Below are positions 8,671 through 42,086 of a DNA stretch of 46,577 nucleotides, piece by piece. The first letter of the stretch is position 1. The number at the start of each line of letters is the position of its first letter. The notes beneath the pieces are model-generated. The model saw only the letters and a program-made list of their open reading frames with translations, was not told the DNA's origin and did not search any database. The stretch is from Saccoglossus kowalevskii. Lineage: Eukaryota > Hemichordata > Enteropneusta > Harrimaniidae. The translations under genes and the position numbers were made by a program. The DNA is taken from the NCBI RefSeq assembly GCF_000003605.2, contig NW_003122907.1, forward strand, positions 245,410 to 291,986. The letters run 5' to 3'.

Positions 8671-8685
8671 TAACGTGCAAGTGCT

Positions 8686-17245: not shown

Positions 17246-17296
17246 ATGACAACTTCGTGATGACGCTCTCAAAATTTAAATTCCTTTTGATTTCAG

Positions 17297-17435
17297 AACT
17301 CTGCAAGAATCAGAGTAAAACGTAGACGTCTGAAGGTTATAGCTATCTTGTCTACTGTAACCGGTTTCATAATAGTTGCTACGATGATCGGCGTAATACT
17401 CTTCGCTACCGGAGCACTGAGTCGCGAAGTGAAAG
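17297..17435 (+). CDS. Transmembrane exon of plus-strand gene, altered 5' end
   Basis: The copy of the minus-strand TM exon on the plus strand, with acceptor gatttcag and donor gtatac. From RVKRRRLK onward it reads the same helix (VIAILSTVTGFIIVATMIGV, then ILFATGALSREVK). It is 139 nt rather than 134 because of a 5-nt insertion near 17,310. With the old acceptor it would need an incoming phase of 0, not 2. The insertion also creates a new CAG at 17311-17313, after which the frame is phase 2 again. Which acceptor is used cannot be told. No upstream coding exon for it was found. Confidence 0.6.
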
Positions 17436-18138
17436 GTATACACCAGTCAGCTAAGACAAAAAAGAATAGTTACTATATACAATACAACCTACATTTATTT
17501 ATTATGCCGTGACAAATTTGATAATTATTACGTTTTGCCTAACTAAGCAGGTCCGTCCTGAACCACGAATACGTATGCCGCTTATATGTGTTGTTAATCA
17601 CGATACGTGTTTTGTAGTGTTCGAGATTCAACTTCTAACTAGACTGTATGGATCCAAGCTTATTACCTGTCGTTAAACATATATCTGAACAGTGTTAATA
17701 CCATGCCTTAGATTTGTTGGCAAATACAATGAGATTGTATGTACATTATTTTTGTTACAACGATAATGTTTGTATTGATATACATTGGTATATGATAAGT
17801 TCGACTCGGGAGCGCGATGGGTAATAAAACTTCGACCACTCAAAGTATGACGCAAATCTTTCTCTCACTAGCATATGTCGTAGTCTACAGTGGATAGTTT
17901 TCAGTTTCTTACATTGTGGGACAATATCACAACAAGAATATTTACTATATTATATAATTTACTATATTATATTTCTTTCCCAGACTTGTCCATATATCAC
18001 GGTCTACTGTGGATTGTTTTCAGTTGTTTGCATTGTGTTTTTGGACGTGTCAAATTATGAATGTGGATTTCATTTGGGTGTGGTATTAATTATTATTTTG
18101 TAGTAAATACCTGTTTTGGATTTTTTTGGGTTTTCTAG
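17436..18138 (+). other. Intron of the plus gene
   Basis: Noncoding inverted-arm sequence matching 5545-6188; no separate feature recognised. Confidence 0.55.
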
Positions 18139-18192
18139 TTGCTGACATGACATCTGTGACTGAATGGCTGCCAGACGAAAATGAAATATCAG
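18139..18192 (+). CDS. Linker exon VADMTSVTEWLP, plus-strand gene
   Basis: A 54-nt exon (18 codons, phase 1-1) between ttctag and gtatta. It encodes VADMTSVTEWLPDENEIS, an acidic stalk segment directly after the TM exon. Compared with 5479-5544 it lacks 12 nt in frame. Splice sites are intact in both arms. Confidence 0.68.
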
Positions 18193-21100
18193 GTATTAGT
18201 AGCTACGTTTTTAATATTAATATAACATGTACGAAAGCGCAAAGAGTGCTTCTGAAACTGTTTAGATGGCGTGTTTACAAAGTTGTCAAGTAGAATGTTG
18301 CCCTATATTCAATGCCGGTCAGTACTCTACATTTCGGATGTAATTATCCGAAAATTCAAAGCTTTAAAAATAAGCCCGGACGTCATTTTGATCGTAAAGC
18401 CGTCGACTGCGAGAGCTAATTAAGTTTAAATCACTCTGACCAACCAATAAAAAAAAAACACCGACATAAGTGATGCTACCCGTCCACAACAATGGCTATC
18501 GCATCACGAGTAAATGTCAAAACTCACCACCGTTTTTACAACTCAATCGCTCAAACGCAAGTGACACAAATTATCAAATATAAATTCGAAAAAAAAGTGG
18601 CACTGAAAAGAAAACTACTGTAAATTGCTGCAGGTTTCATTCAACTGAAGACGAAATGGCCGATAACAATTAGTCGAACCCCGAACTCTGGAAATACCTC
18701 ATTCTATAGTGCCATTTTTATAGTTTGACAGGCTAGTTGATCGTGCTTGCAATGTGATTAAATTAAAGCCCACAAGGATCTGAGCCAAAGCCTATATTTA
18801 TCCCTTCAAATCTCGTATATGCTACAGCTTGCCTTTCTTATTGGCCGACGGCGTACTCACTGGAGAAAATAATTAATAAACAATTACAGTGTACAAGAAA
18901 AAAGTTCGTGTTGCCTGGCGTGGGATTCATTTTGAAAATAACCGTCTTAATCAAATTCCCGAGAAATGTGGTTAGATACTCGGGTCAATTATTTAATTGG
19001 CTTTGAAGGCTAAAATTCATGTTCATGGGGGGGGGGACTGCTAAAAACACAAAAATGTAACTGCAAATTTAAAATTTCTTCGGTAACTTATTTATTTTGA
19101 ATTCAACCTTTGCGTACTTGATTTGCAGTATGCTAACCTTTATAGAATGACTGCAGTATTAGTAGTTTCACTCGCACCTAAAATTGTTAAAGTGTGAGAA
19201 ATGCACACTTTTCAATTTGGCAAGACTTCATGTTCTCATCGGAGTTGTTAATGATTTTCCTACAAATTTAGATTGACCTTTGACATTTTTCACTATTTAT
19301 CAGAATTTAGATTATGTCATCAAACTGTTTTATTTCAAAATAACACGCTACCGCCACGTTGAAAAATGTAAGTTATTTGGGGATGGTGATACTCTAAGTG
19401 TAGATGAGCTGTCATCGCTCATACCTTTCAGAGTAGCAACACTCCAAGGGCAAACTTCTTGTACAATGTATTGTGCTCACCAATTCGTGTATAACTCAAT
19501 AAATAAACTTGCATAAACCATTAATAGATGCTATAGAGATTCCACAGCATTTCAATTGTTTTCATAACATTGGAAATCACTTTGATGCCTGAACTTCATG
19601 TTGTATCTTCGTCAGCCAAGTTTCGTTTATTCAATCATCACTTAAACTTTACATCAAACACCGGGCACAATTTAACTAGAATGGAAACACAAAATGAGTA
19701 AATCATAATGACTAGAACACTGTTAAAAGCTATAGTAACAATGAAATCCCAAACTGATTTGACCCCAATATGTTGTATAACGGTCACGGGCACACGGCAT
19801 CCACGCCGAATATTGGAGCAAAAAGAAAAAATATTTTCTGATCAATTTCGATGTGTTCCAAATAGGGAGAAATATTGTATCCTCACCCAAATCAGCTCAA
19901 TTACGTCACCAGAGCAAGCGACCGCAAACATTTACTGGTGTCACTCCCGGAATAACCACGTAAAATAACGACCAAAACTTTCACTATTCAAACCACAATA
20001 TAATCATACAAATCATATATGATTTTCGTTGCATTTAACAATGACAAACTTACCGTAAATCCGTGTGTTTCCGATCGTGTCCAAAACGAAGCAATACAAA
20101 ATAAGATGTATGTAATATTGATAAAAACAGTTACAAAATAATGAAAATATATCGATAAAATAAAATAGATAAAATAAAAATAATTTCACATCAGATTTTA
20201 ATCAGATTGGCTAGCCGGGCCGCAACATTTTGAGACTAGCAATTTCTTTGCATACATCACCAACAGTGAATTGTCATTCAAAAAGCAGCATAAACAAACT
20301 TTCCGGATGTTCATTCATATACGTGCGCCGGGTTTCTCTGTATTTTAAAATCGCTTTTGAGTATGTTCACCATGGACAATACACTGAAATTTTAACATTG
20401 TTTAACCAAAACTGTCTTGGGTGAGCAAAAACCAAAAGAAAATCCCTTCAATTGCCCAGAAACCTGCATCTATACCTAAAATCTCAAATGCACAAGACTG
20501 CGATAAATCGCTTTCCGTTTGCGACATTGTGAAATTCTGTCGTGTTTTTTTTTTCACCAAATGCATATTTACTAAGGTTCAAATATCGGTTGTTGCACAG
20601 GCTACATATTTTATTGCTGCTTTCAGTCAATCAAATGAAATGCACAAATATTGAGAATACAAGTAATGCGTGTAATCGGTAGGTATGAACATTATTATTG
20701 AGGTGCAGATGAAGTGCATTTCGTTATTAAATATTCTGTTGTTCTCAGTGAAATTCGCAATGTCGAAAACAGAAAGTGTTTGTTTTAGTGTTGCATTCAC
20801 ATTAGATTCTCTAGTCCGACTTGTCTTTACTAGCAGTTGAAAGCGAACACCAAGGCGTGCATCAGCAACAGAATATGTTGTCACCAATACAATTGACTAG
20901 AAGATGTACTACACTCCTTATCGAGACCGTAAGAATAAGAACATATAACATATTATCAGCACCTGTTATGATGTACATTGTCCTGTATTTAATGTTGGTT
21001 GGTTCACCTGTAAACATTGGAATGCAGTAATCAAATTTATATATATTTTAATAATGTGTGTTAATAATTAGAATGACCATTGTCATTGTGAAAAATAACA

Positions 21101-22197
21101 GTTTACTGTACAATTGTATGTTATTAACGTATGGTGTAATGGGTATCTTAGCCAGTGAAATATAATTCAGTAATTGTACCTTGTATCTGAGAAAGTAGTT
21201 GCCATGCCCCAATTGATATAGGTGATTATGGTAAATTATTAGCAGCTGAGTAATGAACAAGTAGGCTAGTCGCTCACAAATGTCTTACTAGATCATGGTA
21301 CCAGCTTTTGATATAACTCCAGTAGAACAGGATATACTCAGTTATTTGCAAACACCTGGTATCACTTCTTGGTCTCATCCATGATATCCATATCTTCTGT
21401 ATATTATTTGTTGAGAATGATCCGAGACTGATCACTTCCAGTAATTTAGCACATTAATTTCTGCACTGTTGTTCACATTGGACCATATGTGCGTGAATGT
21501 ACTAGACACTCGCAACATAATATGATTTCACTGGCACAATACTATTTTGGCGCAACAATGTCCAACAGCGCCCTCAAGCTGACCGTTACAATAGGAAAGC
21601 TAACATCTTTAGAAAGCTGATAACGATTCATTTCTTCCGTTTTGTCCCGATCATAAAGAAGAATCGAAAGATTTAGTTTTGAACGTGTTAACACATTGGA
21701 TGAACGTGACATTTATTAGCTGGGATCACATGTTTCAATGTCAGTTTTTAGTTTGTTTTCAACAACCCATTCATTCCCTGATTTACACTTGACTATGAAA
21801 TTTCTAAAAAATGTCGCCATGGTTGTTGATATATCTTTCAACGATGTAGATGTACCAAATTGAATTTCAAGTCTAGACTTGCTATCACCTCACTTGAATT
21901 ATAATTGATGTTATTGCATTCAACATAGCAATAGCCTAGCCAAGCTGATTGAAAGGAAGCATATCCAATCAAAATCGCGCCAGAGATCGGCGTACTCTAT
22001 ATCTGACTGCAATACACATGTCAACACAGAAATGCTTATGTTCTGTCATCATCTTCAACGTGACATCTGTAAATTAGGTTATAACTTTTAACATTTTGCA
22101 ATGAACACGCCACTAATCATACAACTAGAGTATGTCAAACACTAATTCGAAGGAAAACTTATATAATTAATTGTTCAATATTGTGGATTATTCGTAG
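18193..22197 (+). other. Large intron of the plus gene
   Basis: No exon recognised. It contains a 10-nt G run (19027-19036) and the right-arm copy of the triplicated segment. ORFs at 19280-19516, 19708-19968, 20421-20654 and 20821-21030 lack fitting splice sites or known motifs. Confidence 0.55.
19949..20690 (+). repeat. Triplicated 0.9 kb segment, right-arm copy
   Basis: Same order as 14940-15870, starting ggaataaccacg and ending near atcggtaggtatgaaca. It has lost roughly 130 nt that the other two copies keep around tctatgattggttgacta. Confidence 0.7.
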
Positions 22198-22248
22198 GCA
22201 ACTTGGCGACTGAATTGCTGCAAGATGGAGATGTAGCATCTATATCAG
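22198..22248 (+). CDS. Linker exon GNLATELLQDG, plus-strand gene
   Basis: A 51-nt exon (phase 1-1) with acceptor cgtag and donor gtatca. It encodes GNLATELLQDGDVASIS and matches 1375-1425 codon for codon apart from substitutions. It is a probable extracellular stalk segment. Confidence 0.62.
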
Positions 22249-22607
22249 GTATCAGTTGTTAATTGTACGTTTTATTTTTAATTGTCATTGATATGTGAAT
22301 CAGATGGGGAGCTGGAACACAGTAGAAGCAGTGAAAGGAGTAAAACTTGGTTAGATTAGCCAACACATAGATATTGACATCATACTAATTCAAAACTAAC
22401 TTGATACATAGTGTATGTATCACTTATAGTATGTGTATGGCAAACATTAAAACTCAACAGAATTAGAAAAGTAATCTATCTAGTCCGTATTTGGCAACCA
22501 CAAAGCAAATTACAGAAAGTTAAACTGTAGGAGACTCGTACTTATATTCACGTATACTCAACAGTCAACCTATAATATGATTATTATCTTGTATATTACT
22601 TCTGAAG

Positions 22608-22655
22608 GCAATACAATGTCGGGACTTTTAGATGTCTCTACAAGTATTTTATTAG
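22608..22655 (+). CDS. Linker exon GNTMSGLLDVSTS, plus-strand gene
   Basis: A 48-nt exon (phase 1-1) with acceptor ctgaag and donor gtatgt, partner of 966-1013. Its start (TSEGNT in the surrounding reading frame) resembles the Thr-rich linker exons downstream. The acceptor is weak, so the true start is uncertain. Confidence 0.5.
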
Positions 22656-23313
22656 GTATGTACCTTGTCACTTTACTCTATTTCAAAGACAATATCAGAG
22701 GGCGACACTGCCAATAAGATTTTAAATTCCTAGCATAAACCGTTTGTCTGACCAGCGCCACACAATGTCTATATAAATGTGTAATATCATCTTCATCTCA
22801 GTGATTAACCATTTTCCCACCCACCATTCAGGTAACTATTTGTATTCCTGTTATACCACATTTTGGCCATTCATCTTGTTTTGTCCATGTTTTTTCCGTC
22901 TGCTTAATCTTTGCAAACTATCCAAGTAAATACTTCTGTGATGCGATCTTCAGTTTAACAAAAAATAAGCATCAAGTTCACTATTTATGATATTTGTACT
23001 TCATCGTGACATATCGTCTGTGCATGCGTTTCAAATGACAAACGTTTTGGGACTTCACTTGACAAACATGCATACCATGCACATTTATTCATGATATATT
23101 TTCTCTAAATATCACACAGACAATTTTATTTGTGAATGGACCGCACCCCCCCCCCCAACAAATTTGGCGCATAGTATCCGGCAGTATCGCCCTTACCCTT
23201 AGTCGCAGTACATTTTATGAATGCTGTCGTGCGTTCGTAAATTACATATCCCAAAATTGGGAATCTATTAGACATCTCGATAATTACCATAATAATAAAT
23301 AATTTATTTCCAG
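22656..23313 (+). other. Intron with poly-C run
   Basis: Noncoding. An 11-nt C run lies at 23146-23156. No exon recognised. Confidence 0.55.
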
Positions 23314-23469
23314 TTATATGCAATAATGATTGTTACTATCTTGCTGACGGTTATTGTGATGATGGTGGTTATAATTCACAATCTTACTATTGTGAATTTG
23401 GCTCTGATTGTGAGGATTGTGGCATACGATTTGGAAATTCCAATTCTGGAACCAATGAAGGAATGAGAG
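23314..23469 (+). CDS. LNR-like exon 2 (first on plus strand)
   Basis: Acceptor tttccag, 156 nt (52 codons, phase 1-1), donor gtaaaa. Module: CNNDC, ADGYCDDGGYNS, then CEFGSDCEDCGIRFGNS. It has six cysteines in the spacing C-x3-C-x7-C-x12-C-x4-C-x2-C. The DG, CDD and SDC acidic positions resemble the calcium-binding residues of Lin-12/Notch repeats. It ends with a Ser/Asn/Gly/Thr-rich tail that should act as a spacer to the next module. It is the inverted partner of 297-434. Confidence 0.8.
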
Positions 23470-24488
23470 GTAAAACAAGTACACACTATTAGCACAATAG
23501 TAACGCATGAATTTTAGCAGAATATTACGAGTTTTTCCTGCATTAATTAATGTGGTAATGACTATAATATTAATGATACCTGGGATAGGTGTATAGCAAA
23601 TTCCCATTCCCTTTTTTCCCATAACCAACACCTTTCTTCATAATCGATGCACATCTTTTTTCGAACCGTCCGATTTTTTTCATTGTTGAAAACTACCAAG
23701 GGACACTAATGGCTATATGTAATACAAAAACTACATTAGGACTGTCGGGGTTGATACAATTAATATAACAAATGAAGACACTGATAAAATCGATGATAAA
23801 AGCAAACTAAAACTTGCCAAATTGAAATATAAGATAACAAACGCCCACACATTCGGAGATTGGGGCTATGATTAATTTCTGTAAACTTCTCATACTCGTT
23901 GTATATTACTAGTTTTGGGTGTAGAATTAAGTGAGACTCCTTTCTCTCAAGTATTCGAAAATATGGCCAAGGCAGGTTTTGATTACACATTTCAGACAAA
24001 GAGCCTGTAGTATCTAAGGTATTGCATATTCAGATACACAGAAAATACACTTATTAAAATATCGCTTTCAATGACCTTACATGTAACATTGTATTGTTTA
24101 TCTGAAATTAAAATCAATCCGGATTTGATGTAAAATATCTAATGTACTGTATATGGCAAAAATAATATCTCATTAATATAACATGTATCATGGCGAAGAA
24201 TTCTAAGTTGACACATATATTTGTAATTAGAGGACTTTAAATATTTGAGTTTGTACTTGTAATATAGACGCTCCAAAATATGCCTCAAGAATGGAAGATT
24301 ATTTTAAGCTTGAACTGTCGTGATTGGAAGTAATTTTCGATGACAGTTGCATGTTTTCATATACATCATCATTTAATGTAGTTTGGTTAGCCAGATGGTC
24401 AACACAGGTGAAAACCTGAAATCAAAATTATACTATTACATTTGTAATGTTGATATACACCGTAATAATAATAAATAATTATTTCCAG
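23470..24488 (+). other. Intron between LNR exons 2 and 3
   Basis: Noncoding. From about 23,880 on it is similar to the introns before exons 4 and 5, showing that exon plus intron were duplicated together. No other feature. Confidence 0.55.
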
Positions 24489-24638
24489 CTATATGCAGTG
24501 ATGATTGCTACTATTCTGGTGACGGTCAATGTGATGATGGTGGCGTTAATTCTCAAGCTTACTATTGTGTATTTGGCTCAGACTGTCAGGATTGTGGCAT
24601 GCGCTTTGGAAATTCTGGAACCGCTGAAGAAAGGACAG
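24489..24638 (+). CDS. LNR-like exon 3
   Basis: Acceptor tttccag, 150 nt (50 codons, phase 1-1), donor gtaaca. Module: CSDDC, GDGQCDDGGVNS, CVFGSDCQDCGMRFGNS. All six cysteines are present. The tail is two codons shorter than in most copies. The exon and about 1.1 kb of following intron closely match exon 4, which marks a recent tandem duplication. Confidence 0.8.
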
Positions 24639-25753
24639 GTAACAAATAAAATTGTTGCATTGTTATATTAAAATAATAACATGTGATTTTGAGGGCAATA
24701 TTATGATATGCTGTTTGCCCTAAGAATGGTGGTCATGACTATAATATTAATAATATCAGAGATAAGTGCATGAAAAAAGTCATTCCCCCTTTTTTCCATA
24801 AGCCAAATTTGTCCCCGTAATCAGTGTGCAATTTCTTAGGGAACTCTCTAGTTTGTTTTATTGTTGAAAACTTTCAATCTTCACAAAACAAATTAAGACA
24901 AAGAAAGTTCCCTTACTATAAACCTGAGGGTGCAACATCGTTCTCACAATTTAGAGAGCAAAACTAGGGAAGACGAAGTTGTGAATCATGCATGACGATA
25001 AAAACAGCGCCAGAGTTCAACTTCCTCCCACATTTCAATAGAAAAAAAGGTTGAAGTGGGAAGACCAACTCGCAAACCTAGTAAGATGAATATTGTTCAC
25101 TGTGCTGACTGAGTTAAAAAGGTGATTTGCAAGGAAATCAAACGAGTTTTCTGTGATTATACATGCATGTATCTGGTGTACCCTGTACATTCAGGTATTT
25201 TTTTCTCAGACAAAGAGCCTGTAGCGTCTAAGGTATTGCAGATTCAAATACACATTTCCAACAAATACACCTATTAAAATGTCGCTCTCAATAACCTTTT
25301 TCTAACATTGTATTGTTTACCTAAAATTAAAAACAACCCGGAATTGATGTAATAATTACATGACAAAAATAATATCTCATTAATATAACATGTACGGTAT
25401 CATGGCAAAGAATTCTAAATTGACACATATATTTGTAATTAGAGAACTTAAAATATTCTAACGCTTTCATATTCAACACTACATTTGCACTAATGCGAGT
25501 GTTTGCACTTCAAGCACAGTGTGCTAATATAGACGTTCCAAGATGTGCCTCAAGAAGGGAACATTATCTTTAGCTTGAACTATTGTTGATTGGAAGGAAT
25601 TTTTGATGACAGTTGCATGTTTTCATATACATTTTCATTTAATGTAGTTTGTTAGCCAGATGGTCAACACAGGTGAAAACCTGAAATCAAAATTATACTT
25701 TTACATTTGTAATTTTGATATATACCATAATAATAATAATTCTTTATTTCCAG
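24639..25753 (+). other. Intron between LNR exons 3 and 4
   Basis: Noncoding; strongly similar to 25910-27204. It includes the repeated intronic stretch acaaagagcctgtagc (about 25,210) that also occurs near 23,997, 26,626 and 31,091. Confidence 0.6.
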
Positions 25754-25909
25754 CTATATGCAATAATGATTGTTACTCCTTTGGTGACGGTCATTGTGAT
25801 GATGGTGGCGTTAATTCTCAAGCTTATTATTGTGAATTTGGCTCAGACTGTCAGGATTGTGGCATACGTTTTGGAAATTCCATTCTTGGAACCACTGAAG
25901 AAATGACAG
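25754..25909 (+). CDS. LNR-like exon 4
   Basis: Acceptor tttccag, 156 nt, phase 1-1, donor gtaaca. Module: CNNDC, GDGHCDDGGVNS, CEFGSDCQDCGIRFGNS. It shares the QDCG form with exon 3 (most others have EDCG), which supports their sister relationship. Confidence 0.8.
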
Positions 25910-27204
25910 GTAACAAATACAATTTTTGCATTGTTATATTAAAATAATAACATGTGATTTTTGAGGGTAATATTATGATATGTGGCCTGCCCTGAGATTG
26001 GTGGTCATGACCATAATATTAATAATATCAGAGATAAGTGCATGAAAAAAAGTAATTCCTTCCTTTTTCCATAAGCCAAATTCCCCCCTGTAATCAGTGT
26101 TCAACTTCTTAGGAAACTCTCTGGTTTTTTTGTTGTTGGAAACTTTCAATCTTCACAAAACAAGTTCAGACAAAGTAAGTTCCCTCACTATAAAACTGAG
26201 AGTGCAACGCCGTTCTCACAATTTAGAGAGCAAAACTGGGGAAGACGAAGTTGTGAACTACGCATGACGATAAAAAAGCAAATAAAACTTGCCAAATTTT
26301 TTTGAAGATTTATTCAAATTGATCATATCTACAGAGTGAAACTTTGAGATTATGATTTACAACCGTAAACTTTTCATACTCGCACGGTTGTGATCAGGAA
26401 AGCAACTCTACGGTGTACACGGTGTAGTATATATCCACACGTATTTAGGTGAGTATACCTATTAATACAAGCACTCATTTAAAAGAAACATGTTAAACAA
26501 TGATGACCTTGCAAAATCATACGATTATGCTGTAACTTACTAGTTTTAATTGTAGAAAAATATGAGCCATCTGTCTCTCAAGTATTCGAATATATAGCCA
26601 AGCAGGATTAGATTACACATTTCAGACTAAGAGCCTGTAGCATCTAAGGTATTGCATATTCAGATACACATTCCCAGAAAATACATGTATAATAATGTCG
26701 CTTTCAATATCACGTTGTATGTATTAAAATAGTTATCCGAAAATAATCTTTTGTAACATTGTATTGTTCACATGAAATTAATATCAAACCGGATTTGAAG
26801 CGACATATCCTAAAAAGTGTGCAATTACCTAAACATAATAATATCTCGTTAATAGAACATATACGATATGGCGAAGAATTGTTAGTTGATACTATATTTT
26901 ATATTTGAGGTTTGTAAATGTACGCTTACATATTTAATACTACATTTTCACTGATGCAAGTTTTTGTACTTCTAGCACAGTGTGCTAATATAGACGTTCC
27001 AAAATATGCCTCAAGAAGGGAACATTATCTTTAGCTTGAACTGTTGTTGCTTGGAAGAGGCTTTTGATGACACTTGCATGATTTCATATACATTATCATT
27101 TAATGCAGTTTGGTTAGCCGGGCGAAAACCTGAAATCCAAATTATACTATTACATTTGTAATTTTGATAATTGCCGTAATAATAATAATAATAATTATTT
27201 CCAG
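25910..27204 (+). other. Intron between LNR exons 4 and 5
   Basis: Noncoding, similar to neighbouring introns. It has an (AAT)n tract just before the acceptor of exon 5. Confidence 0.55.
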
Positions 27205-27360
27205 ATATATGCAATAATGATTGTTACTTTATTGCTGACGGTTATTGTGATGATGGTGCTGATAATTCCCAATTTCACATTTGTGAATTCGGCTCAGACT
27301 GTGAGGATTGTGGCATACGCTATGGAAATTCCATTTATGGAACCACTGAAGAAATGACAG
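27205..27360 (+). CDS. LNR-like exon 5
   Basis: Acceptor tttccag, 156 nt, phase 1-1, donor gtaaaa. Module: CNNDC, ADGYCDDGADNS, CEFGSDCEDCGIRYGNS. The GAD in place of GG and RYG in place of RFG are shared with the minus-strand exon at 297-434. These two may be closer to each other than to their neighbours, a hint of exchange between the two gene copies. Confidence 0.8.
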
Positions 27361-28345: not shown

Positions 28346-29590
28346 TACACAAAGCGTACAATGATACACGCATTCTATTTACGATCGTCTACAAATTTAA
28401 TTTCTATGAAATTCTCGCTCTTCAACACTAAAGTCTTGCCGTCGACCATAAAACGAAGACGAAGTTTGCAGAAGAACGTCGAGAGTATGTAAACAGATTT
28501 CGCCGAGAAAGTATGCGACAATTAAAACAATCAGCCGACCAAGAAAGCAGCGACGTTCCGGAGATTGAAGCCGATACAATTGAAAAATTACAATCATTGC
28601 AACCTGAAGAAAGTGTCAGTATAACGGCATTGAAAGTCGAAATTTGCAAAACAGATGAGGATGAGAACGCCGAATTTGACATCATGACCAACACAATTCG
28701 AATTGTTGACTTGGACATATTAAACCAGCAAATCGCGAAAATAGCTACGTGCAAACAATGTACAACAGGCTCCCTCCGTATAATAGAAACACTACAGCAT
28801 GGTTTGGGGTCCGTTATTGCTTGCAGTAATGAAACGCGCCTTGTTCAAAAGTCAACAAAGAAGATCGGTGGTCACTTTGAAATAAATAGGAAGCTTGCCA
28901 TCGGTGGTCGCGTGATCGGAAAAGGGCGAAATTGTCATCGTACATTGGTTTACTCCCACCAGTAACTCGCGGACCATGTTCTGCCCACATCAAGGAAACG
29001 GCAAATTCAGCCGAAACTATTTTACACGAGAAATTTAAGACAGCCGCTAATGAAGTCTGCGAAATTGTTCAAGATACGGGCGGATTGAAAGATGACGGTA
29101 CAGCGAACATTGCTGTGTCTGTCGATGGATCGTAGAGTAATCGAGGATTACTGCCCAAAACGACGTTGGATCAAAAGCATTAGATACAGGTAAATCAAAC
29201 GATTTATTCTTTGACTCGCGATTACTATGACGATCTTTCTATTTCTCGAGTGGTTCCCATCCTGGCAAAATGAAAGTGGCATATTTATTAGTACTTCTGT
29301 AGCATGTAAACACAAATTATTTTGTGTTAAAAAAAATAATCTTGATTAGAACATAATTTTTGATACATTTTCATTGTCACCCTTAGATATGATTCTAGAC
29401 AGTATACATGGTGCAAATGGCAGAGCGACAAATCTACCGGTAAATCCACTTACCAGCTGTTGAAGAGACCACTGCCACTGTCTGTAGTGAAAGCATTATG
29501 GCCCATTGCAGAAAAAACTTTCAAGCAGAGATTTTCTGGAAGGGGCCAAGAATGGATACACCCAGAATGCTAATGAGTCGTTCCATCATT
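28346..29590 (+). pseudogene. Decayed Mutator-like (PF20700-type) transposase fragment
   Basis: An open frame at 28432-28965 carries a cysteine pair (CKQC), then GGHFEINRKLAIGGRVIGKG, the classic region of the Mutator-like transposase domain. A frameshift near 28,930 moves the match to the next frame (IGLLPPVTRGPCSAHIKETA, later NIAVSVDGS). There a TAG stands where Trp is expected before a KRG-like motif. After a gap, 29,390-29,560 encodes TWCKWQSDKSTGK and a further shifted frame gives TQNANESFHHC, the family's later motif. Frameshifts, the stop and the gap show it is dead. It could be read as two exons with an intron, but the shifts argue against function. Confidence 0.8.
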
Positions 29591-29676
29591 GTCTCATTAT
29601 GTTATCAACAGTCCATCTTTCATGTACAGCTCGAGCCAGTATTGTTAAATATGTTTAAAATCTTATATATATTCAG

Positions 29677-29742
29677 AGATGACAAATACTTCTGAAGGGA
29701 ATACATCGTCGAGAACTACTGCTTCTACAAATACTGAATCAG
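29677..29742 (+). CDS. Thr-rich linker exon 1 (EMTNTSEGNTSSRTT)
   Basis: Acceptor attcag, 66 nt (22 codons, phase 1-1), donor gtatgt. It encodes a Ser/Thr/Asn-rich, cysteine-free segment (EMTNTSEGNTSSRTTASTNT) of the kind that is O-glycosylated as a stalk. Exact-length copies with intact splice sites lie at 34623-34688 and 39096-39161. Confidence 0.7.
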
Positions 29743-31961: not shown

Positions 31962-32117
31962 ATATATGCTATAATGATTGTTACTTTGTTGGTAACGGTT
32001 ATTGTGAAAATGGTGGCTTTAATTCCCACTATTACTTTTGTGAATTTGGCTCAGACTGTGCGGATTGTGGCATACGCTTTGAAAATTTTAATTCTAGAAC
32101 CGCTGAAAATATAACAA
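31962..32117 (+). pseudogene. LNR-like exon 6, both splice sites lost
   Basis: The 156-nt body aligns end to end with the other LNR exons and has no stop. The acceptor AG has become AC (tttccac), the donor GT has become AT (ataacaaata), and key residues are altered: GNGYCENGG replaces DGYCDDGG, so conserved Asp residues are gone. All six cysteines remain. It is almost certainly skipped in splicing. As it is symmetric, skipping keeps the frame. Confidence 0.75.
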
Positions 32118-32672: not shown

Positions 32673-32828
32673 CTATATGCAATAATGATTGTTACTATCC
32701 AACTGACGGTTATTGTGATGATGGTGGTGATAATTCCCACTCATACCTATGTGAATTTGGCTCAGACTGTGAGGACTGTGGCATACGCTTTGGAAATTCC
32801 AATTCTGGAACCAATGAAGGAATGAGAG
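32673..32828 (+). CDS. LNR-like exon 7
   Basis: Acceptor tttccag, 156 nt, phase 1-1, donor gtaaca. Module: CNNDC, TDGYCDDGGDNS, CEFGSDCEDCGIRFGNS. The tail (SGTNEGMR) is the same as in exon 2, unlike the TTEEMT tail of exons 4, 5, 8 and 10. Confidence 0.8.
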
Positions 32829-33672
32829 GTAACAAATAAAATTGTTGGAGTGTTATATTTAAATAACATGTGATTTTGAGGGTAATATTGTGATATGCCA
32901 GAGATAGGTGCAAAGTGAATATTCACTCCATCTTCTCCCTTAATTTTTTCTTCATAACCAGCGTGCATATTCTACCTGAACTCTCTAATTTGTTTCGTTG
33001 TTGTAAACTTCGAAAGTTACAAAACAATGTAAGACAAAGAATGTCTCCTCACTATGAACCTAATAGTGCAACCTCCTTCTCATAATTCAGACAGTTGTGA
33101 AGCATGCATCAAAGCAAAGTAGTGTAGTTGTCACGAGTTGACTGAGATAAGAATGTTATTTGTTAAGAAATAAAAAGAGTTGTCTGTGATTATACATGCA
33201 GGTATCTGGAGTACCATGTACATCTAGGTCGTTTTTTATATCATCGTCTTATTGTTTGTTTGTTTGTGTGTTAGCAAAAACACATGTAACATATAGACAA
33301 GGCAATATTTGGTTATGCAATTCAGACAAAGTGTCTGTAACATCTGAGCTATTTCGGATTAAGATACAAATTCCTAGAAAATGCACGTATTACATGACGC
33401 GTTCAGTGTCACGTTGTATGTATTAAATTAAACAAAGAGCAAAGGATAAAGCATACAATATAATATTTTGGTGTTTATGTGAATTATCCTTAGCTCAGTC
33501 CTGTAAATTATAAGTCGGTAATTGCAATTGTTATTATATTTTTTATGACTGAAATCCTACAGATATGGTCATCATCGTATGACAGACTATAGGATTGGCT
33601 ACATATTTATTTGTATGTTGTGTACCGTTTTTGTTTAGTATGAATTTGTTTTGGTTTTGTTTTTCGTTGCAG
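32829..33672 (+). other. Intron between LNR exon 7 and VTD linker exon
   Basis: Noncoding. Linker module copy B begins near 33,320. Confidence 0.5.
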
Positions 33673-33741
33673 TTACTGATATCACATCAACGACAACAGT
33701 GACTGGAATGCTGCTACATAGAATTACAACTCCCATTCCAG
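33673..33741 (+). CDS. Linker exon VTDITSTTTVTG
   Basis: Acceptor gttgcag, 69 nt (23 codons, phase 1-1), donor gtatca. It encodes a Thr-rich, cysteine-free segment starting VTDITSTTTVTG and ending ITTPIP. It resembles the VADMTSVTEW linker exon near the membrane. A copy at 38501-38527 has lost 42 nt in frame. A stalk function is likely. Confidence 0.65.
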
Positions 33742-34622
33742 GTATCAGTTTTTATTTGTATGCTTTTACATTATCATTAGTATGAAAGCATTTTTTTGAA
33801 GGTGACAACAGAAATAAACATGTTGAAAATTGATATTCGAGTCACCCATTCCCTAAAAGTATCCAGGCATGCAACTATAAAATCATCTAACAGCTTAGAA
33901 ATAGGCAAATACAGAAGCGCAAACGGGAAGACAGCTTCTCGTTTTTGTCTTTTGTCTGCTTCGTTTCTAACTACGGTGATATAACTATGGGCTTTCTACC
34001 GATACTCTGTATGGGGAATGCTTATAAATTAGCACAACGTTATTCACTTAGAATCATTTGATGTAATGAATTACATCAGTTCTTCTATTTTTTCATTGTT
34101 TGAAATTTATAAAATGCCTAATAACATCGCATTATTTAGTTAACCTAATTACTATTAGGGGCTGTGCTGTAATTCCCCTACCTAGTTTTTAACACTTGAC
34201 ACTATAACTATGGAACAAAGCCTTGGGGTTGAGAATTATATAATTAGGTCAATTGGAATTTATCCCGAAATTGTCTGTCGCAGAACTAAGTCCAACATGT
34301 TCCAATTATTTTATTGTTGTTGTATTTAAAAAAATCTAAAGTAAAGGTGGATCATATATAAATCTGCTAAGTTGCATGTATTTTTTATAGATGATTTTGA
34401 ATTGCAAATAAGTTAGATAAAACAATCATACACACTCGCTTCTTAATTATAAAGTCCCGACAATGTTATAAGTGGCACAGCACGTGCACTTAGACGAGCG
34501 GCATACGAAGTACTATATCGGATACATGTATTATCAGAGATTTTCAATATGTTATCAACAGTTCATGGTAAATATAATGCTCGAGAGCATTGTTAAATAT
34601 GTTTAATATCTTCTATATTCAG
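33742..34622 (+). other. Intron between VTD and Thr-rich linker exons
   Basis: Noncoding, matching 38,528-39,095. No other feature. Confidence 0.5.
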
Positions 34623-34688
34623 AGTTGACAAATACTTCTGAAGGTAATTCATCGTCGAGAACTACTGCTTCTACAAATACTGATTCAG
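34623..34688 (+). CDS. Thr-rich linker exon 2 (ELTNTSEGNSSSRTT)
   Basis: Acceptor attcag, 66 nt, phase 1-1, donor gtatgc. Differs from copy 1 by a few substitutions (MTN to LTN, GNT to GNS, TES to TDS). Probable glycosylated stalk. Confidence 0.7.
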
Positions 34689-35344
34689 GTATGCACCATG
34701 TCTTTGATTTTCGGAAGACATATTGAACATGTGGGTACTTCAACTTCCCAGAAAGCAACACTATGCAATTAGTAACTACAACTGGTGGATGGGGGTCATG
34801 AAAATGACTTGATGTGACAATTATTCACCACGGCACAGTCGTTGCCATACAAGGGAGTTAAATCGTTCTATACCCTGAAGCTTACACTTAAAAATTGTTT
34901 TGTCATCCCAATGAACGAATTGTGTGATGACTTTGCTCCTGTCTCAAGCACTGTAGCACGGCGTGCAACAGCCTGACACAACAGGCTGGAACAACGATTC
35001 TGTACAAGGAGATAGTTGACTCCCACTTGTTTGATGAATTCTTTTTTAGATGATTTTGTCGAATCAAAAATCAGGCCCTGTTTCCAATAACTAAATTTGA
35101 CAACTGTCTAGCATAGTGTGGTAATATAGGCGTTCCAAAATGAGCCTCAAGAAGGGAACTGTTGCTTTGATCTGCTGTTGCTTAGAAGGGGAGTTTGATG
35201 ACATGTTTACATAAACATCATCAATAAATGTAGTTTGGTTACTAAAATGGTCAACACAGATGGAAACTTGAAATCAAAATTATTCTATTATATTTTTAAT
35301 TTTAATAATTACTGTAATAATAATGATTAATTATTTATTTACAG
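34689..35344 (+). other. Intron between Thr-rich exon 2 and LNR exon 8
   Basis: Noncoding. The first 400 nt match 29,745-30,170; from about 35,100 it switches to the sequence type found before LNR exons. Confidence 0.5.
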
Positions 35345-35500
35345 TTATATGCAATAATGATTGTTACTATCCTGCTGACGGTTATTGTGATGATGGTGGT
35401 GATAATTCCCACTATAACCTTTGTGAATTTGGCTCTGACTGTGAGGATTGTGGCATACGCTTTGGAAATTCTAATACTGGAACCACTGAAGAAATGACAG
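35345..35500 (+). CDS. LNR-like exon 8
   Basis: Acceptor tttacag, 156 nt, phase 1-1, donor gtaaca. Module: CNNDC, ADGYCDDGGDNS, CEFGSDCEDCGIRFGNS, tail GTTEEMT. All features intact. It is flanked on both sides by linker-module sequence, so it was probably placed there by recombination. Confidence 0.8.
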
Positions 35501-35540
35501 GTAACAAATAAATTGTTGCATTGTTATATTTGAGCAATAA

Positions 35541-35640
35541 CCCCCGCCCCCTAGGGCGGTTATACAACGAGATATTGCACAATTCACGTCATGTATGTAC
35601 GAGCCGCAGGCAATTGCATATATGAAGTGAATTGTGAAAT
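35541..35640. repeat. Palindromic insert with two hairpins
   Basis: CCGCCC-ccta-GGGCGG (35544-35559) is followed by a longer hairpin: CACAATTCAC (35578-35587) pairs with GTGAATTGTG (35627-35636), and the inner TCATGTATG/CATATATGA pairs with one mismatch. It stands exactly where LNR exon 8 flank gives way to linker-module sequence and is absent from the other copies. It could be a small foldback element; class unknown. Confidence 0.6.
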
Positions 35641-36866
35641 AACATGCCGGGACAACGATTCTGTATTAGGAGTTACCTGACACACTTTTGTTTGATGAAT
35701 TATTGTTTATGTGATTTTCTCGAACCGAAAATACAACAGATGTTTTTTAAAATAGATTTTCGTTTGCAATCACGCGACCCTGCGTGCATGATGTTCGCAT
35801 CTATGCTCTTGAAGCTTTTATCACTACAACAGTGTCACTAAGAGAACCCCATGCAGCGACGGGTACGCACTCCTGGATGAGTTTGTAATTGGATTAAAAT
35901 TTTGCACATAATTTGTGTTGTCATGATTTTATCAGTTGTCAGCGTAGGCGCAATCCTGTCAGTAATAGTTCAACATATTGTGTGCTGCTATCTGAATACG
36001 TATTTGTACATTCACCAGCCATCGAAGAATGTGTTTGCGTGGTTCTTTCTACATGCATATGCCATTATATTGGAATGTTACTGTGATTAACATTGGCTGA
36101 GAAGTATATCGTGATTCATTCTATTTTAACGTGGCTGACTTAAATATGAACTGCTTGATTTAAATTGATATGTGACCAATGTGTGTATCAACACACCTGA
36201 CATTGATCAGACCATTTTACCACTTTCAGTCAAGTGACCCATAGTTCAAGTCATTCGAGTTATACCTGTTATACCACACTGTGCCTGATGTTCTACCTAT
36301 ACATTCTATTTCTTAACCAACACTTGTCTTCGAATTGGTGTGTTTCTTACTTCCTTACATCTTACTTTTCTAGTAAATCACGTTTGCTTGTTAATTGTTT
36401 CAGACAAAAGAGCGAAGAACGTTGTGCAGTGTACAATTTTCTAAATCTACACATTATATTTTTTGCCTTAAATTAAACCCAACATGGATTTGAGGCGATA
36501 TAGCTTATGTAGTGTGTCATTACTTTGAGAAAAGTTTATCTCATTAATATTAACAGAACATGGACGACATAGCGAAGAATTGTTAGTTGACAACTATATT
36601 TTTATTTCAAGTCTGTAATATGCGCTTTCATATTTTTTACTACATTTTCACTGATGCGTGTGTAATTCTAGCATAGTGTGGTACTATTGGTGTTTCAAAA
36701 CATTTTCTTTAGTTTAATCTGTTGGTGCTTGGAAGGGGATTTTGGTGACATGTTTCCATACACATCATCATTAAATGTAGTTTGGTTAGCCAGATGGTCA
36801 ACGCAGGTGGAAACCTGAAATCAAAATTATTCAAATGTGTATGTTAATAATAATAATAATTTCCAG
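35641..36866 (+). other. Intron between LNR exons 8 and 9
   Basis: Noncoding, matching 30,030-30,930 and then the sequence typical before an LNR exon, with an AAT tract near the acceptor. ORFs at 35644-35841, 35902-36090 and 36234-36476 are not supported. Confidence 0.5.
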
Positions 36867-37787
36867 CTATATGCAATTGGCACAGTGCAATGCCTGCTTA
36901 TTGCAACTGAGAGGGCAACACACATAACCTACACTGGACAGGGGGTTCTTTCACTGCTAAACAAGACAACAGTACTGGAAATGAAATACACATACACCAA
37001 AATATCGAGTTAAAGGAGGGTTATAATACCTCTCAAAATAAAGCACAAACAAAACAATGAATAAAGTGACTAAAATAAGGGATTGCCGATGGAAATGTAC
37101 ATTGATGATAACTCACAGTTTCAGTATATAGAAATAGTTGGTTTCTGTAACACAATGACGAAGAAATACAGAATTCTTGCTTGCAGAGGAACGCTTTTAT
37201 TCTGGAGGGCACCCCTGAAAGCAGGAGTTTGCAGAGCAGTTCATACAAGTCTCACAGAATGACGGTTGAAGCCTGTATCACTTGTCCCACAATATCGCAG
37301 CAGCTACACACAGGATACACAGTAGAAATGATGGGCCCCAACTGTCTCCGTGTAGCCTATTTATACGCCTAAATGACCCAGATTCAGTGACATTACCTGG
37401 ATTTCCAAAATGAGCCTTTCAGGGTGTGTTTTTGCTAGCAGCTGTCTCACGTACGCAATTGAGTTGATCATGAAAGTCTTTTGTTATGGAAATCACAAGC
37501 ACATCTGGTAGATTCTACAGCCTTTCCACAGTGGTAAACAAGTATAACCTGTCAATCACTTTTATGACCGTTATCAGACGGCAATGCACACATATTCTTC
37601 TCATGATTCCGCGAACACTTCTATTTGCAGGGTTTGTGATATTATGACAAAAACATAGAATGAAGGATTCTGACAACAATAATGATAGTTACTATCCAGC
37701 TGATGGTTATTGTGATGATGATGGTGATAATTCCCAATATTAACTTTGTGAATTTGGCTCATTCTGGAACCGCTTCAGAAATGACAA
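36867..37787 (+). pseudogene. LNR-like exon 9, split by an insertion
   Basis: The exon starts normally after ttccag (36867) but breaks after tatatgcaat (36877) and resumes at caataatgatagttac (37677). The distal half has a Cys-to-Ser change (NDS), an extra D codon, a TAA stop after NSQY, and a deletion removing the second half of SDCEDCGIR. A donor-like GT follows at 37788. It cannot encode a folded module. Confidence 0.8.
36878..37676 (+). mobile_element. About 800-bp element inserted in LNR exon 9
   Basis: The insert begins tggcacagtgcaatgcctgc and ends ggattctgacaa. It is flanked by CAAT (36874-36877 and 37677-37680), a possible 4-bp target duplication. It matches 8425-8670 and then 7690-8265. 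TIRs are weak at best (ttggcacag vs ttgtcagaa) and it has no plausible coding frame, so it is a nonautonomous element of unknown class. Confidence 0.7.
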
Positions 37788-38500
37788 GTAACAAATAAAA
37801 TTGTTCCAGTGTTATATAAAAATAATAACATGTGATTTTGACGGCAATATTTCGATACGCCGGAGATAAGCTACATTTTTCTTCATAATCGGCGTGCATC
37901 TATTAGGGAACTTTCTGATTTATTACCGTGCAATTCTCATACTCACATGCTTATAATCAGTAAACGCACTCCACAATTACCTATATGTATATCCATATTT
38001 ATATATGTGTATACCAATTAGTACAAAAGACCTATCAATGAGACATTTTAAACATTGATCTCATTGTAAAATCGAAAAAAGGTAGATTATGATTTTGGTC
38101 GTTAAAACAGGTGGGATTTATGTTCCTTTAGTATTGATAAACATAGAAAAGGCAGGATTTGAATAAAATTATGTAATTCGGATTAAAATACCCATTTCTA
38201 GAAAATGCACGTATTGCAATGACACGTTTAGTGCCACATGATATGTATTATATTGAACAATGAGCAAATGACAAAGCGTACAACATACCATTTTGTGAAT
38301 AATCTTTATCTCAGTCCTGTGCATTACAAGTTTGTAATTGCAATTGTTAATATGATTTTTCTGACTGAGATCATACAAATGTGGTCATCATCTCATAACA
38401 TACTATAGGATAGGCTACATATTTATTTGCGTGTTGTGTACCGTTTTTGTTTTCTTCTTTCACAAGTATGAATTTGTTTTGGTGTTGTTTTTCGTTGCAG
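37788..38500 (+). other. Intron before short linker exon
   Basis: Noncoding. Linker module copy C begins near 37,917 (ctgatttattaccgt). Confidence 0.5.
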
Positions 38501-38527
38501 TTACTGGAATTACAACTCCCATTTCAG
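38501..38527 (+). CDS. Short linker exon VTGITTPIS
   Basis: Acceptor gttgcag, 27 nt (9 codons, phase 1-1), donor gtatca. It is the exon at 33673-33741 with 42 nt removed in frame. At this length it could be skipped by the splicing machinery; skipping would not shift the frame. Confidence 0.5.
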
Positions 38528-39095
38528 GTATCAATTTTGGTTTGTATGCTTTTACATTATCATTATTATGAAAGCAATCTTTTGAGGTTAATAACATAAT
38601 AAACATGTAAACAAATCATATTAACTATGGGCTTGCTACCGATAATCTGTATGGGGAATGCCTATAAACTAGCATAATTTATTCACTTAGAATCATTTGA
38701 TGTAATGAATTACATCAGTTCTTCTATTTTTCAATGTTTTGACATTTATAAAACATCGCTTTATTTAATTAACCTAATCATTATTAGTGGCTGTGTTGTA
38801 ATTTCAATACGTAGCTTTTAGACTTAGCACTATACCTATAGAACAAAACCTCGGGTTTAGAATTATAGAATACAGTCAATTTGAATTCATTGCAAATTTG
38901 TCTGTCGCAAAAATAAGCCTAAAATGGTCTAATTGTTTTATTGTCGTTCCTGCGAGTATAACACAAGTATTTAAGAAAATCTAAAGTAAAAGTGAATCAT
39001 ATACAAATCTGCAAAGTTGCATGTATCAACAGTTCATGGTACATGTAATGCTCGAGAGATTATTGTTAAATATGTTTACCATCTTCTATATTCAG
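38528..39095 (+). other. Intron between short linker and Thr-rich exon 3
   Basis: Noncoding, matching 33,742-34,622 with deletions. Confidence 0.5.
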
Positions 39096-39161
39096 AGATG
39101 ACAAATACTTCTGAAGGCAATACATCATCGAGAACTACTGCTTCTACAAATACTGAATCAG
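39096..39161 (+). CDS. Thr-rich linker exon 3
   Basis: Acceptor attcag, 66 nt, phase 1-1, donor gtatgt. Its protein (EMTNTSEGNTSSRTTASTNT) appears the same as copy 1 although the DNA differs at some positions, which suggests the protein sequence is kept by selection or was recently homogenised. Confidence 0.7.
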
Positions 39162-39697
39162 GTATGTACCATGTCTTCGATTTTCGGCAACCATACTGAG
39201 CACGTGGGTACTTAAACTTCCCAGAAAGCAACAATGTGCAATTATTAACTACAACTGGTGTGGAGGAGATTCATGAAAATTGCTTGATGTGACAATTATT
39301 CACCACGGCACAGACATTGTCATACCAGTCGCATCTATGCTGTTGATGCTTTTTGCACAACAACAGTGTCACTTGGGGAACTCCAAGCACCGATGTGAAT
39401 GCACTCCTGGTTACGTTTCTAGTGTATTGAAAGTATGCACTTAATTTGTGTTGTCATGATTTTACTAGTCGTCAGCGCGGGCGCGATCCTGTCAGTAATA
39501 TTTCAACATATTGCGTGGTGATATCTGAATTTGCTTGTGTAATTCGCCAGCCATTAAACAGTGTATTTGCTTGGTTCTTCTTACATGAAGGTGCCATTAC
39601 GGTGGAAAGTTTGTGTGATTTACATAAACAGCAGTTTTTTAGATAGGTGGTCAACACAGGTGTAGATAATTACCGTAATAATAATAATTTTTTCCAG
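39162..39697 (+). other. Intron between Thr-rich exon 3 and LNR exon 10
   Basis: Noncoding, matching copy A and B flanks with a large internal deletion, and ending in an AAT tract. Confidence 0.5.
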
Positions 39698-39853
39698 CTA
39701 TATGCAATAATGATTGTCACTATCCTGCTGATGGTAATTGTGATGATGGTGGTGATAATTCCCACTCTTACCTATGTGAATTTGGTTCAGACTGTGAGGA
39801 TTGTGGCATACGCTTTGAACATTCCTATTCTGGAACCACTGAAGAAATGACAG
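39698..39853 (+). CDS. LNR-like exon 10
   Basis: Acceptor tttccag, 156 nt, phase 1-1, donor gtaaaa. Module: CNNDC, ADGNCDDGGDNS, CEFGSDCEDCGIRFEHS, tail GTTEEMT. All six cysteines and the acidic positions are kept. Confidence 0.8.
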
Positions 39854-41949
39854 GTAAAAATGAAATTGTTAATGAAACTGTTACATAAAAATAATGAAAC
39901 GTGATTTGTTAGGGCAATATTATGGTGTGTTGCCTGCCTTAAGAAGGTGATCATGACCATAACATTGATGATACCAGAGATAAGTGCATAGCAAAATGTC
40001 ATGCCATCTTTTCCTATCAGTCGCATCTTAGGGAACTCTCTGGTTTGTTTTATTGTTGAAAATTTTTAAAATTCACAAAACAATTTCAGACAAAGTATGT
40101 CCTGTCACTATAGAACTGAATGTACAACGTCCTTCTCATGATTCAGAGAGCAATTTTTCATGTGTCTTTGGATCAGCAAAGTAATGTAGAGGTCACTGTG
40201 CTGACTAAGAACGTCAATGACGAGGGAAGCAAAATAGGTGATTATACTTGCATGTATCTGGTGTGCAATGTACGTTCGGGTCGTCTATTTAATCATCATC
40301 TTATTGTATGTTTGTACAATAGAAGTCATATAACATCGGTACAGAGTGTGTAGAAAATCGTGTGATATTAATTAAAAAACACAATAAAACACAACTACAC
40401 TACTAAATAACTACAACTGAGGGGGTTCATGCAATTTTCCTAATGTGACAATTAATCATCGCGTCACAGCTGTTGTCATACCATGGATACAAATTTGTTT
40501 ATACCCCGAAGCTTACAGTTAATAATTGTATTGTCATCCCAGATAAAATACTAATGAGAAACAATTAACCGACTGTTGTCAATTTTGTCATAAATGCAAG
40601 TTTGTTGCAAAACCACACAATTGATCAAAATTATCTACGTTTTTGCCATTACAAGCTATGGCCATATGTTCTATACAAAATATCAAGTTGATCGGGTAAA
40701 CACTCTAAAGTAAAAAAATGCCCCAAATTATAGTAATTTTCCAGGAATCCAAGATCAATCACAAAATTATTTAATTTTTTCGTAAAACAGTTTAGCTTAT
40801 ACATGTTATATACAAAGTCATGCAGCCTCCTTTGCTTCATAATAGTCCAGCAGCCTGGCCCCTGAAACTCTTTAATTGTGAAGCAATGGATTTGTCTGTT
40901 GATTAAAAAAAATAATTAATACAGTATCATAAATGTCCATTTCTGTTTTAATTTAATTAATTTAATCTTTGATCAAGGTAGTCGGTTTGAGCACACATGA
41001 GGACCGAATGTCTTAAATTGTGGTCAGTTTTGCCAAAAAACAAAAATGGAGCCTAACCATGTGACGTATCGAATTTTTTTTGAAAGAGTACCATACGTGC
41101 TACATGCCAATTATAATCTGTATCAGTTTAAACACTCATGAAAAATATTTTTGACATTTTGCCTAAAATACAAGAAGGCGGTCAAACCACGTGCACGTGA
41201 CTAATCAAAATTCTGTTTTATCTGTCTGAATGATTTTGATATAAACACGCATGATCAATTTCAAAATAATCGTATGATTGTGGCATCAGTGAAAAAAATA
41301 TATTTCATTTAGAAGAAATCCAAAATGGCGACCAAACCACGTGAAAAGATTTGAAACAATAATGTGCTTCAGACATAGATGCTAAAACCCAATGTTCAGA
41401 TCAGTGTGTATGTATGTGTATATATATATGCCATAGAAGTGTTTGTCTAAGGGATTAGCTGACGGCCATTTGGATATTTTGTATTCCGAACATTGAAAAT
41501 ACTATTTTTATATGCTGAGGCTGCATCTCCTGACCAACTGAATTAACGAGTTAAATCAGACGGAAACTCACAGTGTTATAATAATGTAATATTATCTTTA
41601 TGTGACTATTGCTTCATTTTAGAATCGTAACACGGACTCGTTTTTCAGTATGACGTACTTATGTGTATTCCTATTTTTGACAGGCACTTTTTTACCCTCA
41701 CAGAATATGCAAACGTTACAAGACGTGCCTCAAAAAAGGAAAATTCTTTTATTTAATGTTGATGATATTCTTATCATGACCATTAGGACAGGTTATATAA
41801 CACATCACCACTGTCAATTTGCATATACAATGCCATATATTTATTGTAGTTTGGTTAACCTGTCATCAGGTGCCCACCAACAGTTAGAATAGAAATTATT
41901 ATTATTCTAAACAAATACCGTGATAATAATTTTACCTATTTATTTCCAG
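39854..41949 (+). other. Last intron of the plus gene
   Basis: Noncoding. It contains a partial linker-module flank (about 40,400-40,545) and three diverged repeats around 41,045, 41,180 and 41,325. ORFs at 40120-40353, 40649-40840 and 41650-41892 have no supporting features. Confidence 0.5.
41040..41350. repeat. Three diverged units with ACCACGTG core
   Basis: Similar phrases recur about every 140 nt: atggagcctaaccatgtgac (41,045), ggcggtcaaaccacgtg (41,183) and atggcgaccaaaccacgtg (41,324). Two of them contain a CACGTG palindrome, an E-box-like core. Function unknown. Confidence 0.5.
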
Positions 41950-42086
41950 GCATATGTAATAATGATTGTTTGTGGTTTGGTGACGGTGTATGTGATGACG
42001 GTGGTGTTAATTCTGCTTATGCCGATTGTGTTTATGGTTCAGACTGTGAAGATTGTGGCGTACGCTTTTATGAGTACCGTGGCTAG
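41950..42086 (+). CDS. LNR-like exon 11, terminal exon with stop
   Basis: Acceptor tttccag, phase 1 in. Module: CNNDC, GDGVCDDGGVNS, CVYGSDCEDCGVRFYEYRG and then TAG at 42084-42086. This is the most diverged intact module (CLWF after the second Cys, CVYG, GVR) and has no splice donor. The protein therefore ends about six residues after the last module, with no C-terminal membrane segment, which fits a type II topology. Confidence 0.78.

Follow-up and report, generated by a model that had tools for sequence, protein, structure and literature searches.

A phase-1 exon chain of Saccoglossus kowalevskii and its probable membership of a family of modular type II surface proteins

What is encoded by the long series of small exons between positions 17297 and 42086 of a 46,577-nucleotide stretch of Saccoglossus kowalevskii DNA, and does the series still give rise to a protein? 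The stretch, which we call the window, comprises positions 245410 to 291986 of contig C1549 in a 572 Mb assembly. A sequence-only reading had described the series as the gene of a modular type II membrane protein, with a transmembrane (TM) exon, stalk exons, cysteine-rich modules likened to Lin-12/Notch repeats (LNR), Thr-rich linkers and a terminal module with a stop. We rebuilt the chain exon by exon, refer to it as copy A, and compared it with two related copies, B in the same window and C on contig C2752. We consider it likely that the three loci form a family that encodes a single-pass type II surface protein with turnover of its modules, of which C is the minimal form, A the expanded form and B a frameshifted form.

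The exon chain of copy A and the constraint on its modules

The exon chain between 17297 and 42086 is real. The first of these positions is the first base of the TM exon and the second is the final base of the terminal stop; both proposed borders hold, and the joined chain between them is open over 602 codons. Each of the 15 internal exons (three stalk, seven module, three Thr-rich (T) and two U exons) is open, has AG/GT borders and a length divisible by 3, and is in phase 1 at both sides, just as the sequence-only reading had stated for the exons that follow the TM exon. A polyadenylation-like AATAAA is found at 42185, about 100 bases 3' of the stop.

The modules that can still be spliced evolve under protein-level constraint. 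Comparison of the eight spliceable modules of copy A gave proportions of 0.290 for synonymous (pS) and 0.136 for nonsynonymous (pN) differences, and hence a pN/pS of 0.47 (codon bootstrap 0.26-0.78), with only 0.14% of the bootstraps reaching 1 or more. Substitution in the modules is constrained, whereas the sequence-only reading had named unconstrained substitution as part of one outcome that would refute it. Taken one at a time and compared with the others, the seven intact internal modules gave ratios from 0.30 to 0.63, whereas module 5 (31962 to 32117), which has an open frame but has lost both the acceptor AG and the donor GT, gave a neutral-looking 0.95. This splice-dead module serves as an internal control, because constraint ended at the point where splicing ended. 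Two module remnants, at 36867 and 37677, were excluded from every pN/pS count. Between copies, the terminal modules of A and C differ with a dN/dS of 0.40. The contrast between exons and their surroundings points the same way: in 36 pairs of nine modules, a set that takes in the splice-dead module and the module of B, base identity was 0.82 in the exons as compared with 0.62 and 0.59 in the 150-base flanks. The flanks of some closely related modules, 2 and 3 for example, are as alike as the exons, which is expected of recent duplicates.

All features of copy A lie on the plus strand. The TM exon (17297 to 17435) has splice borders, runs from phase 0 to phase 1 and carries the basic tail and the helix (NSARIRVKRRRLKVIAILSTVTGFIIVATMIGVILFATGALSREVK); a genome search with TM exons returned three places at E<=1. 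Stalk exon 1 (18139 to 18192; VADMTSVTEWLPDENEIS) has homologues in B and C, and stalk exon 2 (22198 to 22248; GNLATELLQDGDVASIS) has one in B. Stalk exon 3 (22608 to 22655, acceptor ctgaag) is weak and, by its appearance, is probably a decayed Thr-rich exon. Module exons 1 to 4 follow at 23314 to 23469, 24489 to 24638, 25754 to 25909 and 27205 to 27360, and module exons 6, 7 and 9 are located at 32673 to 32828, 35345 to 35500 and 39698 to 39853, ahead of the terminal module with its stop (41950 to 42086). Three Thr-rich exons, T1 (29677 to 29742), T2 (34623 to 34688) and T3 (39096 to 39161), belong to a family that is shared with five exons of C. The U exons are U1 (33673 to 33741; VTDITSTTTVTGMLLHRITTPIP) and U2 (38501 to 38527; VTGITTPIS). 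Besides the splice-dead module, the decayed modules of copy A, three in all, include the remnant at 36867 to 36910, which retains its acceptor and, as read from the sequence, meets an in-frame stop after 13 full codons, and that at 37677 to 37766, which has an internal stop. T and U exons return every 4.5-4.9 kb, with modules in between, and much of the copy A array is thus explained by tandem duplication of whole blocks.

Some other elements of this region may be mentioned here. A remnant at 28432-28965 has a weak match to a Mutator-like transposase (PF20700, E=0.0015, under the cut-off) and sits about where the block spacing predicts a third U exon. The repeat at 19422-19904 is dispersed, with over 30 other genomic matches that are 68-80% identical to it. 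Downstream of the chain, an open reading frame (ORF) at 45718-46467 encodes a 2A-like motif, GNVESNPGP, and after it a coiled-coil-like stretch; we take this ORF to resemble ORF1 of some non-LTR retrotransposons.

Related copies and the state of copy A

Copy C consists of a start exon, a TM exon, stalk exon 1, five T exons and one terminal module, and is open from ATG to stop over 225 residues; all six of its exons from stalk 1 through T5 are symmetric phase-1 exons with a length divisible by 3. Its 23-residue basic tail (MDNTVEPVDMNSARIRVKRRRLK), which ends in KRRRLK, is N-terminal to a helix with a Kyte-Doolittle value of 3.13, and the ectodomain is acidic (isoelectric point 4.05) with a Ser/Thr fraction of 0.37. 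The terminal modules of A and C cluster with a support of 100 in a module tree in which most other nodes are weak, and the homology of the two copies extends beyond the stop. As judged from its sequence, copy C has the features of the intact minimal form. The tandem gain of modules that had been proposed is borne out by the comparison of eight spliceable modules in A with one in C.

Copy B, which is inverted and only partial, runs along the minus strand of the same window from 6530 to 297. It has a start exon at 6501 to 6530 (MDNTVEPVNM, then gtaaat), followed by a TM exon (6189 to 6322) that is 5 bases shorter than those of A and C, so that the frame is lost after the start exon. Stalk exon 1 (5479 to 5544), which has four codons more than that of A, stalk exon 2 (1375 to 1425), stalk exon 3 (966 to 1013) and a sole module (297 to 434) complete the copy, and no further module was seen in the adjoining 30 kb of contig. 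Homologous exons of the copies differ in length by multiples of 3 in five of six cases (by our own reading of the exon table), as compared with 30 of 106 gaps in an alignment of A with B that consists largely of intron. Much of the gap between the divergent TM exons of A and B is occupied by tandem repeats (8636-14942) with a spacing of about 519 bases. Neither the inverted copy nor the paralogue on C2752 appeared in the sequence-only reading, which also passed over the splice-dead module, the two remnants and the lack of a start exon in copy A.

According to the positive-inside rule, a basic tail that precedes the helix is the mark of a type II signal anchor. At the level of sequence the proposed layout is present, with a short basic N-terminal tail, one helix and the modules C-terminal to it, most clearly in C, where there is also a start codon with an intact frame; A has no start exon and B is frameshifted. 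One could envision a protein whose basic tail of about 23 residues remains in the cytosol and whose single helix anchors it. A Ser/Thr-rich stalk of repeated 22-residue cassettes would raise the protein off the membrane, the T cassettes being extended and probably glycosylated, and one to eight acidic six-cysteine modules would be displayed outside as compact disulphide-rich units, most likely small binding or spacer units stabilised by disulphides and perhaps by Ca2+. Symmetric phase-1 cassettes would allow tandem duplication to add modules, and the loss of a module's splice sites would drop that module with the frame unbroken, since the gain or loss of a phase 1-1 cassette leaves the remainder readable. 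Copy A, by its sequence apparently a class 1-1 modular surface protein gene with a seemingly unnamed module, would be the expanded form, which in the assembly may have lost its start exon by a deletion of about 1 kb.

Several observations weigh against this interpretation. No start exon like those of B and C was found for copy A in the assembly, so that the exons of the proposed gene model stand but a protein from A is no more than predicted. In the comparison of A with C, the TM exon gave a dN/dS of 0.83 and stalk exon 1 one of 0.91, on few sites. The T exons lack clear constraint (21 pairs from seven of the eight T exons, the longer T exon of C being omitted, gave ratios from 0 to 2.27 where defined), and stalk exon 3, with six nonsynonymous and no synonymous differences between A and B, looks unconstrained. 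Finally, AlphaFold2 gave a poor model for one module of the window (predicted local distance difference test score, pLDDT, 47.6). The high ratios of the TM and stalk exons lend mild support to the earlier description of the protein as fast-evolving, which the terminal module, with its lower ratio, does not share. The receptor or adhesion role that the sequence-only reading also suggested is putative.

How might the start exon have been lost? Positions 17005-17063 of A align to C about 1.1 kb upstream of the start exon of C, and the homology of A to B and C restarts at about 17245-17251. The simplest reading of this arrangement is a deletion of about 1 kb that removed the start exon. Copy A may have been silenced or may depend on a different first exon; a third possibility is that the assembly contains one broken haplotype. 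The constraint on the modules built up both before and after the deletion and is silent on whether A is still translated.

The strongest alternative is that copy A is a recent pseudogene, in which the constraint was inherited from its ancestors, the deletion ended translation, and only C makes protein today. A search of the whole assembly matched the start-exon region at two places only, C and B; moreover, A contains three decayed modules and B is also broken. Against this, eight modules of A keep open frames and splice sites, the absent exon amounts to only about 10 residues that another first exon could replace, and the deletion could belong to a single haplotype or be a fault of the assembly. 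We judge the chances of this explanation to be about even. Alternatively, the first exon of copy A might be a new and unrelated one located upstream of 17297, in which case A would encode a protein of about 600 residues. The 602-codon open chain and the pN/pS over the eight spliceable modules would fit such a protein, but no candidate exon was identified, the homology to B and C stops at about 17245 save for the short match at 17005-17063, and the constraint cannot be dated solely to the time after the deletion. We regard this alternative as possible but rather doubtful.

The six-cysteine module and its distribution

The module core has 38 residues and six cysteines with the spacing C-x3-C-x7-C-x11-C-x5-C-x2-C, among which Asp, Gly and Arg residues are near-invariant. 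The Pfam profile check that the sequence-only reading had proposed yielded no match above the cut-off: both of two single modules and six of seven further modules were without any match, and a four-module query and the one remaining module gave sub-cut-off matches only (zinc-finger models and one DUF). There was likewise no match in NCBIfam for six modules or in the PDB sequence set for the four-module query and the module profile, and no paper on the module was among the best literature matches. On this basis of Pfam, NCBIfam, PDB and literature (InterPro, SMART, CDD, PROSITE and eukaryote proteomes were not searched), the module is apparently unnamed.

The likeness to LNRs that the sequence-only reading had noted holds as a loose pattern, DGxC with six cysteines. 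One hypothesis is that the modules are diverged true Lin-12/Notch repeats, given that the pattern C..C......DGxC......C..G.DC overlaps that of the LNR. In keeping with this, a single hhalign comparison of the module with the LNRs of this genome aligned 14 columns around DGYCD with an E value of 0.0031, and hmmsearch with the module profile reached 0.0017 at best in the set of three LNRs. The same comparisons, however, gave a probability of only 10.2% and scores of 0.4 to 6.3 bits with a bias of 11-14. The Pfam Notch family (PF00066) did not match two single modules, one four-module query or seven modules, and it is not among the 25 of 29 Pfam families listed for 59 bacterial ORFs that contain the module (E<=1e-5). 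The cysteines also differ. LNRs form the disulphides 1-5, 2-4 and 3-6. An LNR on C3219 of the same genome has the spacing C-x3-C-x9-C-x3-C-x4-C-x6-C, of which the module lacks the fourth cysteine while having an extra one after the GSDC cysteine, and the canonical LNR places of the genome, three in number on C2446 and C3219, are separate from the module places. LNR membership is rejected by Pfam and the cysteine spacing; on these two grounds the resemblance is probably one of pattern and not of membership, and we consider descent from true LNRs unlikely.

The module is not confined to the window. With one query, the module turned up in this genome at 81 places on 17 contigs at E<=1, and 60 of these places also passed E<=0.001; the window accounts for 11 of the 81, and clusters on C131 and C3290 for 17 and 15, respectively. 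A second query found 63 places at E<=0.01. Three other loci were examined, and at one of them, C1748, three modules lie downstream of astacin exons (best E=2.2e-27). The remaining two, C594 and C223, have four and three modules, respectively, within one exon. ORFs near the C594 and C223 modules encode Ala/Pro/Ser-rich or acidic repeats with no Pfam match.

A pattern search of GTDB gave 255 matching stretches; confirmation left 152, from which the best 79 loci were taken. The bacterial modules are 54-73% identical to the query module, which was taken from C594. These best 79 loci comprise 32 of Myxococcota type, 14 from Planctomycetota/Phycisphaerae, 13 from 'Deltaproteobacteria', 10 of Bacteroidota type, four from Alphaproteobacteria and six not assigned to a group, counts that follow the record titles and in which a genome in some cases contributes several loci. 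A scan for partner domains covered 59 of the 79 loci, with 20 dropped because the ORF was shorter than 200 residues or none was located by the motif; each of the structure alignments also covered 59 and left out 20. Among the matches listed, the partners included CarboxypepD_reg (five), papain-type peptidase (four), matrixin (three), C-type lectin (three) and trypsin (two), and VWA domains also stand beside the module in some bacterial proteins. Judged by sequence, the domains that accompany the module outside the present family are for the most part types found in extracellular proteins. Of five AlphaFold2 models for a bacterial module core, the best had a pLDDT of 77.4 and the rest 52-60. 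Spread of the module by viruses gained no support from IMG/VR, in which none of 16 pattern matches was confirmed.

One interpretation of this distribution is that several bacterial phyla and this animal share an undescribed family of extracellular domains, acid-rich and with six cysteines, to which the module belongs. In this animal it would have become a phase-1 exon cassette by capture; surface proteins would be gaining and losing it one exon at a time, and it would also be present in an astacin-associated gene, so that the module number would vary between copies and perhaps between individuals. We think that this interpretation is as apt to be right as wrong. We consider it very improbable that the exon-like pattern is instead a mobile or satellite sequence that is open only by chance, as chance or repeat origin, suggested by the repeat-rich surroundings, is rejected by the module pN/pS below 1 and the exon-flank contrast, and the identical module type occurs elsewhere in the genome and in bacteria.

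A passing observation concerns the mitochondrial cox1 on C4830, in which 447 matched codons include seven TGA, eight ATA, one AAA and no AGA or AGG. The ATA codons fall at sites that we take to be typical of Ile. This codon use is compatible with a hemichordate-type code, as given in the hemichordate rows of PMC3121625, but does not prove it.

Comparison with known systems

The modules share with the LNR family a length of about 35-40 residues, conserved acidic residues and tandem use, besides the cysteine number and DGxC motif; they differ in spacing and Pfam match, and the LNRs of this genome are on other contigs. Although the term 'LNR-like loop' has been used for cytophagalysin, it denotes there a loop of the metallopeptidase (PMC11674741). 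The nearest precedent that we found is the copepod Oithona nana, in which a burst of LNR and LNR-like domains gave 178 domains in 75 genes (PMC8301441). Some of these proteins carry trypsin or metallopeptidase domains, tandem duplications are described, and most are predicted to be secreted, with six of the 75 predicted to be membrane proteins (PMC8301441). The likeness thus lies in a lineage-specific burst of small cysteine modules, with tandem duplications and peptidase partners. The copepod domains, however, were found by an LNR profile, and the LNR-like ones among them are two cysteines short (PMC8301441), whereas the present modules keep six cysteines in another spacing and go unmatched by the Pfam LNR profile.

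The bacterial proteins, from Myxococcota, Phycisphaerae, Flavobacteriales and others, contain the same 38-residue module, in some cases near peptidases, lectins or VWA domains, but their modules adjoin other domains in single reading frames. A small domain that is unnamed in Pfam and NCBIfam, and for which the PDB copy that was searched contains no relative by sequence, is found with proteases and lectins in some bacterial proteins and beside astacin exons here, and naming it, if it is undescribed, would annotate many proteins.

Class 1-1 extracellular modular proteins arise by exon shuffling, each symmetric phase-1 exon encoding a folding unit or a linker. The module of the present family differs from theirs in having no named domain above the Pfam cut-off; the symmetric phase-1 exons, with their easy gain and loss, are alike. 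For the study of how modular proteins evolve, the family constitutes a compact natural experiment, in which related copies have one or eight spliceable modules and a splice-dead module drifts neutrally next to its constrained siblings.

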